DNA of 64,000 nt, from positions 2,604,001 to 2,668,000 of the forward strand of contig NZ_CP067041.1 of assembly GCF_016599855.1 (NCBI RefSeq), given 5' to 3'. Source of the stretch: Bradyrhizobium diazoefficiens. Lineage in GTDB: Bacteria > Pseudomonadota > Alphaproteobacteria > Rhizobiales > Xanthobacteraceae. Position numbers and translations under genes: made by a program. This document shows positions 56,425-61,207 of this stretch, one piece after another. Positions within the stretch are counted from its first letter, which is position 1. Every line of letters begins with the position of its first letter. The notes beneath the pieces were generated by a model, which was given only the letters and a program-made list of their open reading frames with translations, was not told where the DNA came from and made no database searches.

Positions 56425-58104
56425 ATGACGCGCAAGTCCGAGAGTAAGTTGCGAACTGCGGCCGGTGCTTCGTCGGCCGGAGCCGCGCTCCTGCTCGCCG
56501 CCTGCCTCGGTATCGAAGCGGCGCACGCGCAGGCGATCATGCGGACGCCCACCATCAGCGTTCCCTCGCGCACGCCAACGATCTCTCCGAGCGTCGCGGC
56601 CAGGGCCGGGAGCGTCGATCGCGGTCCGCGCATGGCGCCGATGGCTCATATCTCGCCGCGGATGGGGCCGAATCCGGTGCTGCCTTATGCGCACTACTCG
56701 CCGAACCTCTATCCGGCCTGCTCCGCAGCCTATCGCGATGCCGATGGCGAGTGCCTCGGCCAGCCGAATCCGGGCGGTGGCTCCGGCAAATTGGCCAGGA
56801 AGAGCGCCGGCAAGGGACGGGGCAACGCGACGGCGCTCGCCACAATCTCGCGCGCCTTCACCAACGAATTCGTGGCCGAGATCGACAGCGCGCTGTCGCC
56901 GGCCGAGGCCGATGAACTGGCGCGCCGTCATGGTCTGACCCGCGTGTCGTCCGAGAATTTCCCGCTGATCGGGGCCACAGTCGGACTGTTCCGCATCAGC
57001 GACGGCCGGCCGTATGAGACGGTGCGGCGCGAATTCGCGGCCAATTCCAGCGTGCGCTCGCTTCAGCCGAACTTCCGCTACATGCTCCAGGACCAGAAGC
57101 CGGCGGTGCTGATTGAAGGCGATCCGGCGCAATACGCGCTGGCGAAGCTGCGCCTGCCGCAGGCGCACACCCTGGTGCACGGTGCCAATGTCACTGTCGC
57201 CGTGATCGATTCCGGGATCGACGCCAGGCATCCCGAGCTCGTCAATTCCATTGCCGACAATTTCGACGCGCTCGGCAGCAGCGAGGGCGCCCATGTCCAC
57301 GGCACCGGCATTGCGGGCGCCATCGTGGCCCATGCCAAGCTGATGGGCAGCGCGCCGGAAGCGCGCATTATCGCTGTTCGCGCCTTCGGTGGCACCACGG
57401 GCAGCGCCGAGAGTTCGTCCTACATCATCCTGCGATCGCTCAATTATGCCGCCGAGCACGGCGCCCAGATCATCAATATGAGCTTTGCCGGTCCGAAGGA
57501 CGCGGTGATCGAGCGCGCGATCGCGGCGACTGCCGCGCGCGGCCTGGTGCTGATCGCGGCTGCCGGCAATGCCGGCGCCAAATCGCCGCCGCTCTATCCC
57601 GCCGCCAATCCCAATGTGATCGCGGTCAGCGCGACCGACCAGCAGGACAAGCTGTTCACCGCCTCGAACCGCGGCAGTTACATCGCGCTGGCCGCGCCCG
57701 GCGTCGATATCTTCCTGCCGGCGCCGGATGGCAAATATCAGATGACGTCTGGCACCTCGTTCTCGGCTGCCTATGTCTCCGGCGTCGCCGCGCTGCTGCT
57801 CGAGCGCAACTACACGCTGAAGCCGAACGCGCTGCGCATGGCGCTTGCCAGAACCGCGCGCGACCTCGGTTCACCCGGGCGTGATGATCTCTACGGCGAT
57901 GGCGAGGCCGACGCGTTTGCCGCCGTGATGGCTGTTCCCGCCGATAGCGCGCCGCCGGTCGCGGCCGCGTCCGATACAAGAAAACGTGAAGGTGCCGAGA
58001 AGCGTCGCGAGGAGCCCGGCATCCGCGCAATAGAGCAACCCTCGCTGTCGAGCGCGGACGATAAATCCGCGGTTTTTCAGGTGGATAGGCCGGCGGCGCG
58101 GTAG
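56425..58104 (+). CDS. Exported subtilisin-like serine protease (S8)
   Basis: A 559-aa precursor. The catalytic triad is complete: Asp262 (AVIDSGID), His292 (VHGTGIAG), Ser445 (SGTSFSAAYVSG), with the oxyanion Asn382 (AAAGNAG). A signal peptide spans residues 1-36; LAAC at 24-27 also fits a lipobox, so it may be a lipoprotein. A Pro/Ser-rich stretch and a propeptide-like domain (residues 135-225) come before the protease domain; a charged tail of about 55 residues ends it. It is the third gene after the ECF sigma and anti-sigma genes, with only 16 bp to the latter. Confidence 0.92.
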   Translation: MTRKSESKLRTAAGASSAGAALLLAACLGIEAAHAQAIMRTPTISVPSRTPTISPSVAARAGSVDRGPRMAPMAHISPRMGPNPVLPYAHYSPNLYPACSAAYRDADGECLGQPNPGGGSGKLARKSAGKGRGNATALATISRAFTNEFVAEIDSALSPAEADELARRHGLTRVSSENFPLIGATVGLFRISDGRPYETVRREFAANSSVRSLQPNFRYMLQDQKPAVLIEGDPAQYALAKLRLPQAHTLVHGANVTVAVIDSGIDARHPELVNSIADNFDALGSSEGAHVHGTGIAGAIVAHAKLMGSAPEARIIAVRAFGGTTGSAESSSYIILRSLNYAAEHGAQIINMSFAGPKDAVIERAIAATAARGLVLIAAAGNAGAKSPPLYPAANPNVIAVSATDQQDKLFTASNRGSYIALAAPGVDIFLPAPDGKYQMTSGTSFSAAYVSGVAALLLERNYTLKPNALRMALARTARDLGSPGRDDLYGDGEADAFAAVMAVPADSAPPVAAASDTRKREGAEKRREEPGIRAIEQPSLSSADDKSAVFQVDRPAAR

Positions 58105-58590
58105 CGGCCGCGACAAGATTGCTTGCAGCAGGACGGCCAGAAAATCGAGCGCCGCGTTGAACGTTCAAGCGCCCTGCCACGACCAAAATACGTGGGAGCG
58201 GTCATCCCTCCCCATAAGTCATATCAGGCGCGAGCGCCCATCCACCCCAAGCGCCCATATGGCTCGACCCGTCCGGTTGTCCCCCCGGACGGGTCTTTTC
58301 TTTTTAGGGATCCGATTTCTTGAAGTCTCGTGCGAGATCAGCTTGCGATTGAACCCGCGGGTGCGATCGTCGTCAGGACCCGGCGCGGCACGCGGCAGGT
58401 CCGCTATGCTTGTGCGAAGCTTGACTCGCAAACACCGAAAATCTCCGCACGACTACGGCGTTTGATGACGAACGACGCGTCGTTGCTGGACAAGTCAAAA
58501 CTTTTCCACAACATATTCCCGTCGCGTCTAAATTGATTCGTGTGCGTTGCGTCTCCCGCGTCCGTATTTTTTCTCCTGACGGGCTGGTTC
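58105..58590. other. Gene-free stretch with one terminator
   Basis: About 490 bp after the protease gene. The terminator at 58266-58305 ends the upstream unit. The part from 58306 to 58590 includes an AT-rich zone near 58494-58535 that probably holds the promoter of the next gene. No RNA gene or conserved box was recognised. Confidence 0.55.
58266..58305 (+). terminator. Rho-independent terminator
   Basis: GACCCGTCCGG (58266-58276) and CCGGACGGGTC (58285-58295) form a perfect 11-bp stem, followed by TTTTCTTTTT. It lies 160 bp after the protease stop, so an RNA of some length or a small transcript of its own could end here. Confidence 0.92.
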
Positions 58591-59163
58591 ATGACTCATC
58601 GCCAAAGCGCGGCAGGCAGCCGCGACATTGCGGCACGCTGGTGCGCTCTCGCCGAGCAGCGGCTGGAGCATCTCTCCGAAATGTTCGAGACCGGGCGCTG
58701 GCGCCGCTATCACTCCGAGCTCGCATTTCTTGAAAACATCCAGGAAGCCAAGCGTGCGGTCCAGACCTGGCGCGCGCTTGCGAATGGTTGGGACGTCGCC
58801 GCGGCCGCCGCGAGCGTGACCTCCGCATTCGGCTGGTCGCCGGCGACGATGCCGCGCGTGTTTGCGCGCGAGGAGCAGATCCAGACCGTGCAGCCGAAGG
58901 CGGTGCACATCGCGCCCGAGACTTTCGTTCCGGTCAGGCTCGAGCCGAAGCCGGACGTGCTCGCCGAAATCGTCGAAGCGCCGATTGCGCCGCTCGCCCC
59001 GACTGCGCCGGTCGCGCCGCTGCCGCCGTCGGTCGCGTCGTTCTTGCAGACCTTCTCGCCGCCCGCCAATGAAATCGCCGCAGCTCCCGAGCGCGTCGTC
59101 GAATTCACCTTCAGCCTCGACGGCATCGAGGCAAAGTACCCCTTGCTGCGGAATTCGTTTTAG
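58591..59163 (+). CDS. Uncharacterised conserved protein (possibly TIGR03809 family)
   Basis: A 190-aa protein with a helical N-terminal half (DIAARWCALAEQRLEHLSEMF, in pieces, then GRWRRYHSELAFLENIQEAK) and a Pro/Ala-rich linker (residues 110-155) before a short end. No signal peptide or catalytic motif. I recall a TIGR03809 family with this N-terminus, found in the same organisms as the TIGR03808 beta-helix protein that lies 0.7 kb further; the assignment is from memory. ATG 58591 is the likely start; an earlier in-frame ATG at 58540 is less conserved in character. Confidence 0.75.
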   Translation: MTHRQSAAGSRDIAARWCALAEQRLEHLSEMFETGRWRRYHSELAFLENIQEAKRAVQTWRALANGWDVAAAAASVTSAFGWSPATMPRVFAREEQIQTVQPKAVHIAPETFVPVRLEPKPDVLAEIVEAPIAPLAPTAPVAPLPPSVASFLQTFSPPANEIAAAPERVVEFTFSLDGIEAKYPLLRNSF

Positions 59164-59201
59164 GGCGACGCTGGTGAAGCGCCCCGCGTCTCCTCCAACC
59201 C

Positions 59202-59266
59202 CGTCATCCTGAGGTGCGAAACATGGGACGCAACGCGTCCCATGGAGAGCCTCGAAGGATGAGCGG
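59202..59266 (+). repeat. Dispersed palindromic repeat, family A, copy 1
   Basis: Head CGTCATCCTGAGGTGCGA, a perfect 10-bp hairpin in the middle (CATGGGACGC / GCGTCCCATG around AAC, 59222-59244) and tail GAGCCTCGAAGGATG. Head and tail also pair in part with each other. Confidence 0.9.
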
Positions 59267-59289
59267 CCGGACTGCTCGCCGTATCACGC

Positions 59290-59598
59290 TCACTTCTTCG
59301 GTCTGGGCGCTCCCGCCCGCCGCCGTGCAAACTGGCTCACAGCCTTCCAATCCGATCGAATGAGCGCTTCCTTCTTTGCGCGGCTCCAGCCCTTGAGCTG
59401 CCGCTCGGCAGCGATACCGTCCGTGATCCGCTCGAAATACTCCGACCAGACCAGGACGACCGGGCGTCTCGAATAAGTGTATCCCGGATAAGCACCGGCA
59501 TTGTGCTCGTCGACCCGCTTGGACGTGTCTTCGCCGGTTGCACTTCCGATGTAGAAAGAGCCGTCCGCGCATCGCAGCATGTAGATATAGATGCCCAC
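59290..59598 (-). CDS. Small GIY-YIG nuclease-like protein
   Basis: A 102-aa GIY-YIG domain protein: IYIYMLRCADGSFYIGSAT gives the two signature tyrosine blocks, RVDEHNAG the middle Arg/His region, and ERQLKGWSRAKKEALI the C-terminal Glu helix. Such one-domain nucleases (UPF0213-like) have no firm role. GTG 59598 is chosen because AAGGA lies 7 bp before it; this ribosome site belongs to the tail of the repeat at 59603-59663. The gene is bracketed by inverted copies of the same repeat (59202-59266 and 59603-59663). Confidence 0.85.
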   Translation of the reverse strand: MGIYIYMLRCADGSFYIGSATGEDTSKRVDEHNAGAYPGYTYSRRPVVLVWSEYFERITDGIAAERQLKGWSRAKKEALIRSDWKAVSQFARRRAGAPRPKK

Positions 59599-59602
59599 AA
59601 CA

Positions 59603-59663
59603 TCATCCTTCGAGGCTCCCCGTACGCTGCTGCGCACCGCACGGCTCGCACCTCAGGATGACG
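59603..59663 (-). repeat. Dispersed palindromic repeat, family A, copy 2 (reverse)
   Basis: On the minus strand: head CGTCATCCTGAGGTGCGAG, a variable centre with GTGCGGTGCGCAGC, tail GAGCCTCGAAGGATGA. Its tail abuts the start of the GIY-YIG gene. Confidence 0.9.
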
Positions 59664-59750
59664 GCAGTGTGCTCGTTGTCAATATTAGAATCAGCAACTT
59701 TTGGCTGTGTTATCGAATAGCGTGGTTTCGTCGGACCTAGGCTTCGCTTC

Positions 59751-59816
59751 CGTCATCCTGAGGTGCGAGCCTTGCGGTGCAAAGCACCGCGAGAGCGAGC
59801 CTCGAAGGATGCGCGG
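59751..59816 (+). repeat. Dispersed palindromic repeat, family A, copy 3
   Basis: Head CGTCATCCTGAGGTGCGAG, centre hairpin GCGGTGC / GCACCGC around AAA, tail GAGCCTCGAAGGATG. It ends about 20 bp before the stop of the beta-helix gene. Confidence 0.9.
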
Positions 59817-59836
59817 CCCATCTGCCAACCGCCCAC

Positions 59837-61207
59837 CTACCGCCGCACCGCATTGCCGCCGACCAGGACCTGCGCAAAGCGTTGGGCGCCCTCCGCTGAC
59901 AGGTCCGCCGTCACGGCGCGCGCATGGTCCAGGCCAACCACGGCGCCGCGCGGGGTTTCCGAGATCATGTTGTTGTTGACGAGCGCGGTGCCGGCGCCCG
60001 GCACGACGGAGACGCCGATGCCGGCCAGCGCCTTGCGGATGACGTTGCCAGTGATCGCGACGTCCCGCAGATATTGGCCCCAGCCCGCGACGATGCCGTA
60101 GGACGGCGCGTTCTCGATCACATTGCCGGTGACCGATGAATCCGCCTCGATGTAGATGCCGATTCCGGCATCGTCATCGGGCGCGGTGCCGATCGGCCGT
60201 TTCGGGATCAGATTGCGGATGATGTTGCCCTGGACCACTGCGATCCGGCCGCCCTCGTTGAAATTGCAGACGGAGACACCGATGGCTGCGCCGTCCACAA
60301 TGTTGTTGGCGATGACCGCAGCCTCGAACGCGAACTCGGAATAGAGCGCGACCTCCCGCACGTCGCTGACGCTGTTGCCTGATATGTGGATGTTGGAGGC
60401 CGAGTTGCCGCGTACGGCGGAATAGTCGCAGTTCTTGATGCGGTTGCCGCGCACGATCACGTTGCCGGCGCGGAAAGCGTTGATGGCGTTGCCGTACTGG
60501 CCGGAGCCGCCGGGCCCGGCCTTGATGTCCTCGATGCGGTTATCCGCGACCAGCGTGCCGTCGTCGCCGATCGCGGTGCGCAGGATTTCGATGCCGTTGT
60601 CGTTGGTGCCGATGATGGTGTTGCGCGAAACGCTGAGGCCCCTGGCGTCGAACGAGACCACCGCGGTCACCGCGATGTTGGTGAAGATGTTGCCCGAGAT
60701 GTCGCCTGTGATCTGCTCGAGCCAGACGCCGCTGCCGCCGGAGCCGCTGATCTCGCAATCGGTGATACGGACGTCGCGCCCGCCGAGGACATGGATCAGC
60801 CCGCGCCGCGTCGGCAGCGGAATGCCGCCGCCGTCGAAGGTGATGCCGGTGAGGCCGATCGAGTCGGAGCCGTCGCTCTGGATCGCCGAGGCCCCGCCGG
60901 TGAACACGAGGTTTGTCGCGCCGCGCACGCCGATCAGTTGCGCGCCATTCGGTAGCCGCAGCAGCCCGGTTCGGTAGAATCCCGGCGGAAGCGCGAGCGG
61001 CATCTGCGCGCGCGCGGCCTCGTCGATCGCGCGCTGCAGCGCGCGCGTCTGATCCTCGCTGCTGCTGGGCCGTATGCCATATTGGGTCGCATCGCGGCCG
61101 AGCAGTGACGTCAGCGGCGCCGCGCGGGCGGCATCGGCGGGCATCGCGAGAGCGCCAGCAATGCCGGCGGTCGAGGCGCCAATGAGATGACGACGGTTGA
61201 GATCCAT
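59837..61207 (-). CDS. Tat-exported right-handed beta-helix repeat protein
   Basis: A 456-aa protein with a twin-arginine signal (MDLNRRHLIGASTAGIAGAL, cleavage near ARA 30). The rest is a parallel beta-helix built of imperfect repeats such as ISGNIFTNIA, VSRNTIIGTNDNGIEILR and ITGNVIRKALAGIGV. It matches the TIGR03808 family (Tat-exported repeat protein) as I recall it. Beta-helix proteins often act on polysaccharides, but no catalytic residues can be named. ATG 61207 directly starts the RR signal. Confidence 0.87.
   Translation of the reverse strand: MDLNRRHLIGASTAGIAGALAMPADAARAAPLTSLLGRDATQYGIRPSSSEDQTRALQRAIDEAARAQMPLALPPGFYRTGLLRLPNGAQLIGVRGATNLVFTGGASAIQSDGSDSIGLTGITFDGGGIPLPTRRGLIHVLGGRDVRITDCEISGSGGSGVWLEQITGDISGNIFTNIAVTAVVSFDARGLSVSRNTIIGTNDNGIEILRTAIGDDGTLVADNRIEDIKAGPGGSGQYGNAINAFRAGNVIVRGNRIKNCDYSAVRGNSASNIHISGNSVSDVREVALYSEFAFEAAVIANNIVDGAAIGVSVCNFNEGGRIAVVQGNIIRNLIPKRPIGTAPDDDAGIGIYIEADSSVTGNVIENAPSYGIVAGWGQYLRDVAITGNVIRKALAGIGVSVVPGAGTALVNNNMISETPRGAVVGLDHARAVTADLSAEGAQRFAQVLVGGNAVRR

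Follow-up and report, generated by a model that had tools for sequence, protein, structure and literature searches.

The small GIY-YIG nuclease gene that we describe here in Bradyrhizobium diazoefficiens lies between inverted REP palindromes of the CGTC type, and the reading that we favour, with a probability of about 0.6, is that such GIY-YIG/REP elements mobilise themselves, that gene-less REP dimers and solo REPs are their non-autonomous derivatives, and that they would move by a nuclease-and-repair mechanism that we infer from sequence comparison. The comparison shows that gene and repeat are associated, with a characteristic orientation and in particular clades; that units at unrelated positions end where the repeats end; that two sites occur both with the gene and without it; and that dimers lacking the gene retain inner ends of the gene-bearing unit. 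REPs count among the most frequent repeats of bacteria. RAYT transposases have been proposed to move the GTAG REPs, and the CGTC superfamily was without a candidate enzyme in the accessible part of a 2013 survey (PMC3733652). A candidate enzyme for the CGTC REPs can now be named; gene-bearing and gene-less forms occur in one genome, defined sites exist with and without the gene, and the spread of CGTC REPs becomes directly testable. If the reading is true, a nuclease of about 100 residues and host repair would suffice to run a mobile element. We give even odds to the broader proposal that the GIY-YIG nucleases of two clades are the missing mobilisers of CGTC REPs in several phyla, and that REP-GIY-REP units of about 0.37-0.62 kb form a new class of minimal autonomous element in which a hydrolytic nuclease and host repair replace a transposase.

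The window, that is, the whole 64-kb stretch of DNA analysed, corresponds to positions 2604001-2668000 of the 7.1-Mb single-contig genome. Its GIY-YIG gene (59290..59598, minus strand, 102 aa, with a GTG start at 59598 and the stop at 59290-59292) is intergenic in our reading of the ORFs; the left neighbour (58540..59163, plus strand) and the right neighbour of 456 aa (59837..61207, minus strand) served as synteny anchors. The original prediction had put the gene between inverted copies of one repeat with a third copy beyond, and the sequence and a strict repeat pattern both confirm this; the three copies were correctly located, with outer ends extending up to a few bases further. REP1 (59202..59261, plus strand) has its CGTC end outward and its tail facing the 3' end of the gene, the inverted REP2 (59604..59663, minus strand) has its tail facing the gene start, and REP3 (59751..59811, plus strand) is a direct repeat of REP1. 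REP3 closely matches a solo REP at the equivalent place in genome G093 (L281). A unit of about 460 bp had been expected, which is too short: by blastn homology to loci L022 and L023 the complete conserved unit (REP1, GIY-YIG gene, inverted REP2, spacer and REP3) covers 59201..59818, about 618 bp, and so includes the third copy, the spacer between REP2 and REP3 (59664..59750) lying within the homology. These repeats, which we call family A, start with CGTC, have longer variable hairpins and carry no CCA tail. The strict family A pattern has 13 matches in the 7.1-Mb genome, three of them at the window unit, and since only 1 of 200,000 uniform simulations placed three of 13 repeats this close, the cluster is not due to chance.

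The window protein matches Pfam PF01541 at 53.3 bits (cut-off 22.6) and keeps the residues that are invariant among nine aligned proteins (Y6, Y16, G18, R28, H32, E65 and others). Pfam at E 0.01, a threshold that a divergent domain could escape, finds no domain other than GIY-YIG and no DNA-binding domain of the NUMOD type, and NCBIfam returns no name for the protein. GIY-YIG being the sole Pfam family in the unit's gene, a DDE transposase is absent from it, and the Y1 transposase family PF01797 has no match in the source genome, the same search being positive in 5 of 14 control genomes.

As had been predicted, the reverse copy supplies a putative ribosome site of the gene: REP2 carries the ribosome-site-like AAGGA, and its tail reads AAGGATG on the gene strand a short way upstream of the GTG. 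This would suit an account in which the REPs serve a host nuclease that processes palindromes, as its ribosome site, terminator or regulator, and in which the whole arrangement is vertically inherited, as would the distance of 4-5 bases between the 5' REP and the matched gene start in L021-L027. We nevertheless consider a host function improbable, given the patchy presence of the gene at both sites described below, the units at unrelated sites and the several copies with in-frame stops.

To quantify bracketing by inverted REPs, we scored the best local alignment of the 450 bases upstream of each gene with the reverse complement of the 450 bases downstream, taking a score of at least 16 as a pass; the score overlooks loci with degraded or paired REPs. 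PF01541 has seven matches in the source genome, and by eye five of these genes (the window gene, L001, L002, L004 and L005) are flanked by inverted palindromes, which differ in sequence; at L001 and L004 the palindromes are weak and have tails alike. The window gene, L002 and L005 score at least 16; L001 (13) and L004 (15) were entered as misses. There is no bracketing of L003, of the 85-aa type, or of L007, which we take from its length and sequence to be UvrC-like. Downstream of L003 (4876649-4876864 of the genome) an apparent tRNA gene can be seen by eye.

Across the genus a relative is present in 59 of 60 genomes, and inverted REPs on both sides (score at least 16) accompany 27 of 35 scored loci, the 35 being 33 small GIY-YIG genes of bracket-prone types plus L003 and L007 as misses, with L029 dropped at a contig edge. 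The usual repeat of bracketed relatives at 72-99% identity is CGTCATCCTGAGGTGCGAG..GCCTCGAAGGATGA (L030 is mixed), and that of bracketed relatives at 48-58% is CTCATCCTGAGGAGC..GTCTCGAAGGATGG; four members of the latter identity group (L037, L038, L040 and L043) score below 16. Br-REP1/2-type repeats accompany L044-L046. In the genus, then, the repeat family mostly follows the protein clade. In-frame stops are present in the GIY-YIG copies L031, L032, L039, L041 and L048 and, by eye, in L332, as expected of decaying mobile genes.

PF01541 matches occur in 277 of the 289 genomes of the class. From these we sampled 29 new top-scoring loci and 40 loci picked by hand from the listed rows (two from genomes among the 29); after L123 and L137 were dropped, 33 of 67 scorable loci reached 16, versus 38 of 1366 flank pairs drawn from different loci. 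A tree of 98 genus and class rows, built on few columns and with many unresolved forks, contains clade I (43 rows), clade II (35 rows, to which the window gene is related) and three further branches with 20 rows between them. It was made without the window gene (L021), L029, L048 and any row in which a stop falls within the first 60 residues, later in-frame stops being coded X; the window gene is put in clade II through L022-L027, which are 89-93% identical to it. Because ORF-end boundaries had lowered some scores (L101, L122, L152 and L162), we used domain boundaries for the clade counts, again leaving out L123 and L137. On this basis 29 of 42 clade I and 26 of 34 clade II loci are bracketed at 16 or above (55/76 in total, with 21/76 below), as against none of the 20 of other types; Fisher's test gives p of about 1e-9 for rows that are not independent of one another.

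Control genes behave differently from the two clades. Over 400 kb of the same genome none of 319 ORFs of at least 100 aa reaches 16 (maximum 14.5), and random 306-bp windows of that genome do so in 11 of 2000 cases, with none at 20; in a second, REP-carrying alphaproteobacterial genome (G159) the figure is 0/299 ORFs (maximum 15.5). The enrichment of inverted repeats beside GIY-YIG genes relative to other genes, which the original prediction had proposed as a check, is thus strong and confined to two GIY-YIG clades. Two simpler statements are ruled out: that abundant REPs bracket any gene (0/618 control ORFs in two genomes) and that all GIY-YIG genes are bracketed (0/20 outside clades I and II).

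The association extends to other phyla. Searching a set of named genomes with a five-row clade I alignment yielded at least 583 relatives, from which we took the best 80; with L186, L187, L225 and L245 dropped, 60 of the 76 scorable loci among these best 80 of at least 583 score 16 or more. The bracketed records come from Nitrospirae, Dehalococcoidia, Omnitrophota, Delta-, Beta- and Gammaproteobacteria, Parcubacteria and Berkelbacteria, and those below 16 include Ignavibacteriales, Bacteroidetes and Elusimicrobiaceae records and two Dehalococcoidales records. Pairs made of different named loci reach 16 in 27% and 25 in 5% of cases, and own pairs reach 25 in 39/76; matches between different loci are frequent because one consensus recurs, CGTCATTCC[CG]GCGAA[AG]GC[CG]GGAATCCAG. 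With a hairpin detector, the nearest REP at the 76 named loci points tail-in on both sides at 39, tail-out on both at 7 and is missing on both at 7, the rest being mixed. No control ORF has a hairpin on each side, whatever the orientation (0/330 and 0/310, together 0/640), and the detector finds none at the 20 GIY-YIG loci of other branches. Applied to the 43 clade I rows of the genus and the class, it detects 10 tail-in pairs and leaves 25 without any hairpin, which we attribute to its seeing one REP shape only.

Units of this kind stand at unrelated sites. The blastn match of the window unit (L021) to L022 and L023 is confined to 59199/59201-59818, and the flanks are unrelated; L024, L025 and L027 share the genomic site of the window unit. 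Two deltaproteobacterial records (L205 and L249) have 376 bp in common at 90% identity, and L205 and the Nitrospirota record L244 share 385 bp at 80% across phyla; both matches stop either at the outer CGTC ends or some bases past them, in flanks that by eye look unrelated. Within one MAG, two copies (L190 and L207) match over 467 bp at 85%, a match that covers the gene and that we read by eye together with its flanks. We consider it quite probable that the element is mobile together with its REPs, whatever the chemistry.

To follow the window site through the genus, we located the right neighbour in 145 of 146 genomes and read the site in 70 of the 145: the 30 best flank matches and 40 rows picked by hand from those that follow, a choice that omitted G015, G012, G130, G077 and G029 and included G007, already known to bear the gene. 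The gene is present in 11, a family A repeat without the gene in 20, neither in 31 and other sequence in 5, and 3 are unreadable (L260, L264 and L268). By eye, sites with the gene and sites with a solo REP have both flanks in common; the 31 empty sites have a gap of 38 bases or less and differ from the filled ones by more than the REP. On a tree of the flanks, gene presence needs 10 changes for 11 rows, a pattern that an old insertion plus loss or recombination could also yield, and the solo REPs could be deletion products rather than targets. GIY-YIG genes at and off the window site interleave in a poorly resolved tree, and at the site the mean gene distance is 0.158 and the mean flank distance 0.097, with a correlation of 0.39. 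One of the 20 gene-less sites (L261, genome G144, at about 840-855) has the outer ends of two inverted REPs joined as GTCATCCTAGGATGAC, a short perfect palindrome, with spacer and REP3 retained; among 339 loci the string occurs once. The locus is a deletion derivative, and its junction looks like an excision or slippage scar. At the window site of L056 and L071 a different CGTC-like REP pair, of the GTCCTGGCGAACGCCAGGACCCATA type, is in place.

The second site lies beside L005, and here we read the 30 best loci of 146 genomes. Ten have a GIY-YIG gene, five of these being of another subtype, 63-68% identical to L005 and in the opposite orientation. Seven carry a clear symmetric palindrome, CGTC-core-GACG, without a gene (with CTC in L321 and enlarged in L331) and two a degraded one; L324 is a REP dimer, L333 an apparent internal-deletion form, L315 and L328 are without a REP, and seven have other sequence. 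Gene-less palindromes thus occupy both sites that elsewhere carry the gene, and sites without the gene, which the original prediction had suggested looking for, exist at two loci. In five of the seven loci with other sequence (L314, L317, L323, L325 and L337) the second site has repeats with GTAGCC ends, GTAG-type by their look, where others host CGTC units.

The L005 REP occurs at 89 strict places in its own genome, four of them symmetric. Its 23 neighbouring pairs within 400 bp all have the CGTC ends on the outside; in 22 the spacer measures 18-25 bp, and the remaining pair, the 23rd, encloses the GIY-YIG gene. We fetched 20 of the 22 dimers, including five of the seven with 18-19-bp spacers, and all five retain, base for base, a 10-bp inner end of the L005 unit (null 0.00025 for each, the pattern fixing three of the ten bases). 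None of the 15 longer-spacer dimers has this exact end; some of them resemble the other subtype, with as many as 11 or 12 of 12 bases agreeing at one end, a resemblance given without a null. Flush direct repeats of 2, 3, 4, 5, 6 or 8 bases, as a target-site duplication would leave, flank 0 of 20 of these gene-less second-family dimers; at a 1-base offset, four of the 20 show a 2-base direct repeat and none a longer one.

In the mechanism that we propose, the element would consist of one GIY-YIG nuclease gene flanked by CGTC-type REP palindromes whose CGTC ends face outward. The nuclease would recognise the REP palindrome, in hairpin or cruciform form, and then nick or cut it, and host repair would copy or re-insert the REP-ended DNA; both the recognition and cleavage of REPs by the protein and the way in which repair may restore or spread a copy are what we infer. 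Where a REP is present at the target, the process would resemble homing into it; REP-free targets would also require repair-dependent joining. GIY-YIG nucleases are hydrolytic enzymes and are not known to join DNA, so that insertion at REP-free sites would need a partner. Gene-less dimers and solo palindromes would stand to the element as MITEs do to a transposon, or as REPINs do to their RAYT gene. It is also conceivable, if unlikely, that the GIY-YIG protein, by itself or helped by a host partner, both excises and inserts REP-ended DNA through hairpin recognition in a true transposition, not by break repair, along the lines proposed for RAYT/TnpA-REP. That units and dimers occur at unrelated sites and end sharply at the repeats, that the dimers are devoid of flush 2 to 8 base direct repeats and that two outer repeat ends are symmetrically joined in L261 would all agree with transposition, but the joining that it demands is not a known activity of the GIY-YIG fold, and the window protein is little more than that domain.

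The nuclease-and-repair reading also bears on the number of REPs per genome. In 60 genomes of the genus, strict family A counts have a median of 23.5 and a minimum of 6 where the gene is present (n=12, two of these with an in-frame stop) versus a median of 1, with 19 zeros, where it is absent (n=48; Mann-Whitney p 4e-6, uncorrected for genome relatedness). The expected difference in repeat number is therefore there, with clear exceptions: G041, G002, G043, G003 and G009 hold 38, 32, 24, 21 and 20 family A copies without a cognate gene match. In the class, at least five copies of the common REP are present in 17 of 82 genomes with clade I versus 4 of 207 without, again uncorrected for relatedness, clade I presence being defined by a best E of 1e-20 or better, a cut of our own choosing. 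The common REP has no copies in 54 of the 82 clade I genomes, as expected if other clade I genes pair with other REPs. Genome G422 has 87 strict copies of the common CGTC REP and is not among the clade I matches, which may reflect recent gene loss or another partner.

Such REP-rich genomes without a cognate match, and the gene-less dimers that greatly outnumber gene units, would be natural if some other enzyme moved the CGTC REPs and the GIY-YIG genes were cargo caught between two of them. We regard this as rather doubtful, less probable even than transposition: bracketing is limited to two GIY-YIG clades while control ORFs are unbracketed, the REP family mostly tracks the protein clade in the genus, and short dimers retain the inner end of the gene unit. 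The enrichment, the gene-less sites and the repeat numbers support what had been suggested from the window alone, a repeat-associated mobile unit that resembles the RAYT-REPIN arrangement with a GIY-YIG protein in it.

Among the known systems closest to the GIY-YIG/REP element is the REPtron (RAYT/TnpA-REP), with which it shares a small gene between inverted REPs of its own dispersed family, many dispersed gene-less dimers and singletons, and several families per genome. There a Y1/HUH transposase goes with GTAG REPs, whereas here a GIY-YIG nuclease goes with CGTC REPs; the element would work like a REPtron but is not one, since it has no Y1 transposase and its repeats are CGTC, not GTAG. With GIY-YIG homing endonucleases it has in common the catalytic domain and the gene-bearing and gene-less versions of one site; it differs in that the window gene is intergenic and has no further Pfam domain, and in that the sites are dispersed palindromes. 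From a classical DDE insertion sequence the window unit differs in lacking a DDE transposase, and the second-family gene-less dimers in lacking a target-site duplication. The nearest solved sequences to clade I by profile are the UPF0213 GIY-YIG proteins BH0048 (1zg2) and EF2693 (1ywl). The other GIY-YIG branches examined differ from clades I and II, with REPs at 0/20.

According to the accessible part of the survey by Di Nocera, De Gregorio and Rocco (2013, PMC3733652), REPs split into GTAG and CGTC superfamilies, dimers with outer tags are called HH, and CGTC elements are mostly HH dimers, found mostly in Alphaproteobacteria and not associated with transposase genes; that part of the text names no CGTC-associated enzyme, and GIY occurs 0 times in the paper. 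Its CGTC families resemble our repeats in the CGTC end, the hairpin, the CCA tail and the HH dimers, and differ in that a GIY-YIG partner is proposed here and that family A has longer variable hairpins and no CCA tail. The traits of the superfamily recur in our second family, which is HH in 23/23 close pairs, and in the CGTC end and hairpin of family A. The repeat beside the L045 GIY-YIG gene contains both consensus sequences given for Br-REP1 and Br-REP2 of Bradyrhizobium (PMC5082802) letter for letter; that paper has 0 occurrences of GIY and, in its accessible part, mentions no gene partner, and no GIY-YIG/REP link is made in the accessible parts of PMC12306157 and PMC1564403. Our search of the open-access literature, with preprints and most subscription journals outside its scope, found no report joining GIY-YIG and REPs.

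Elsewhere in the window, an ORF of 559 aa (56425-58104) presumably encodes a subtilisin-type protease.
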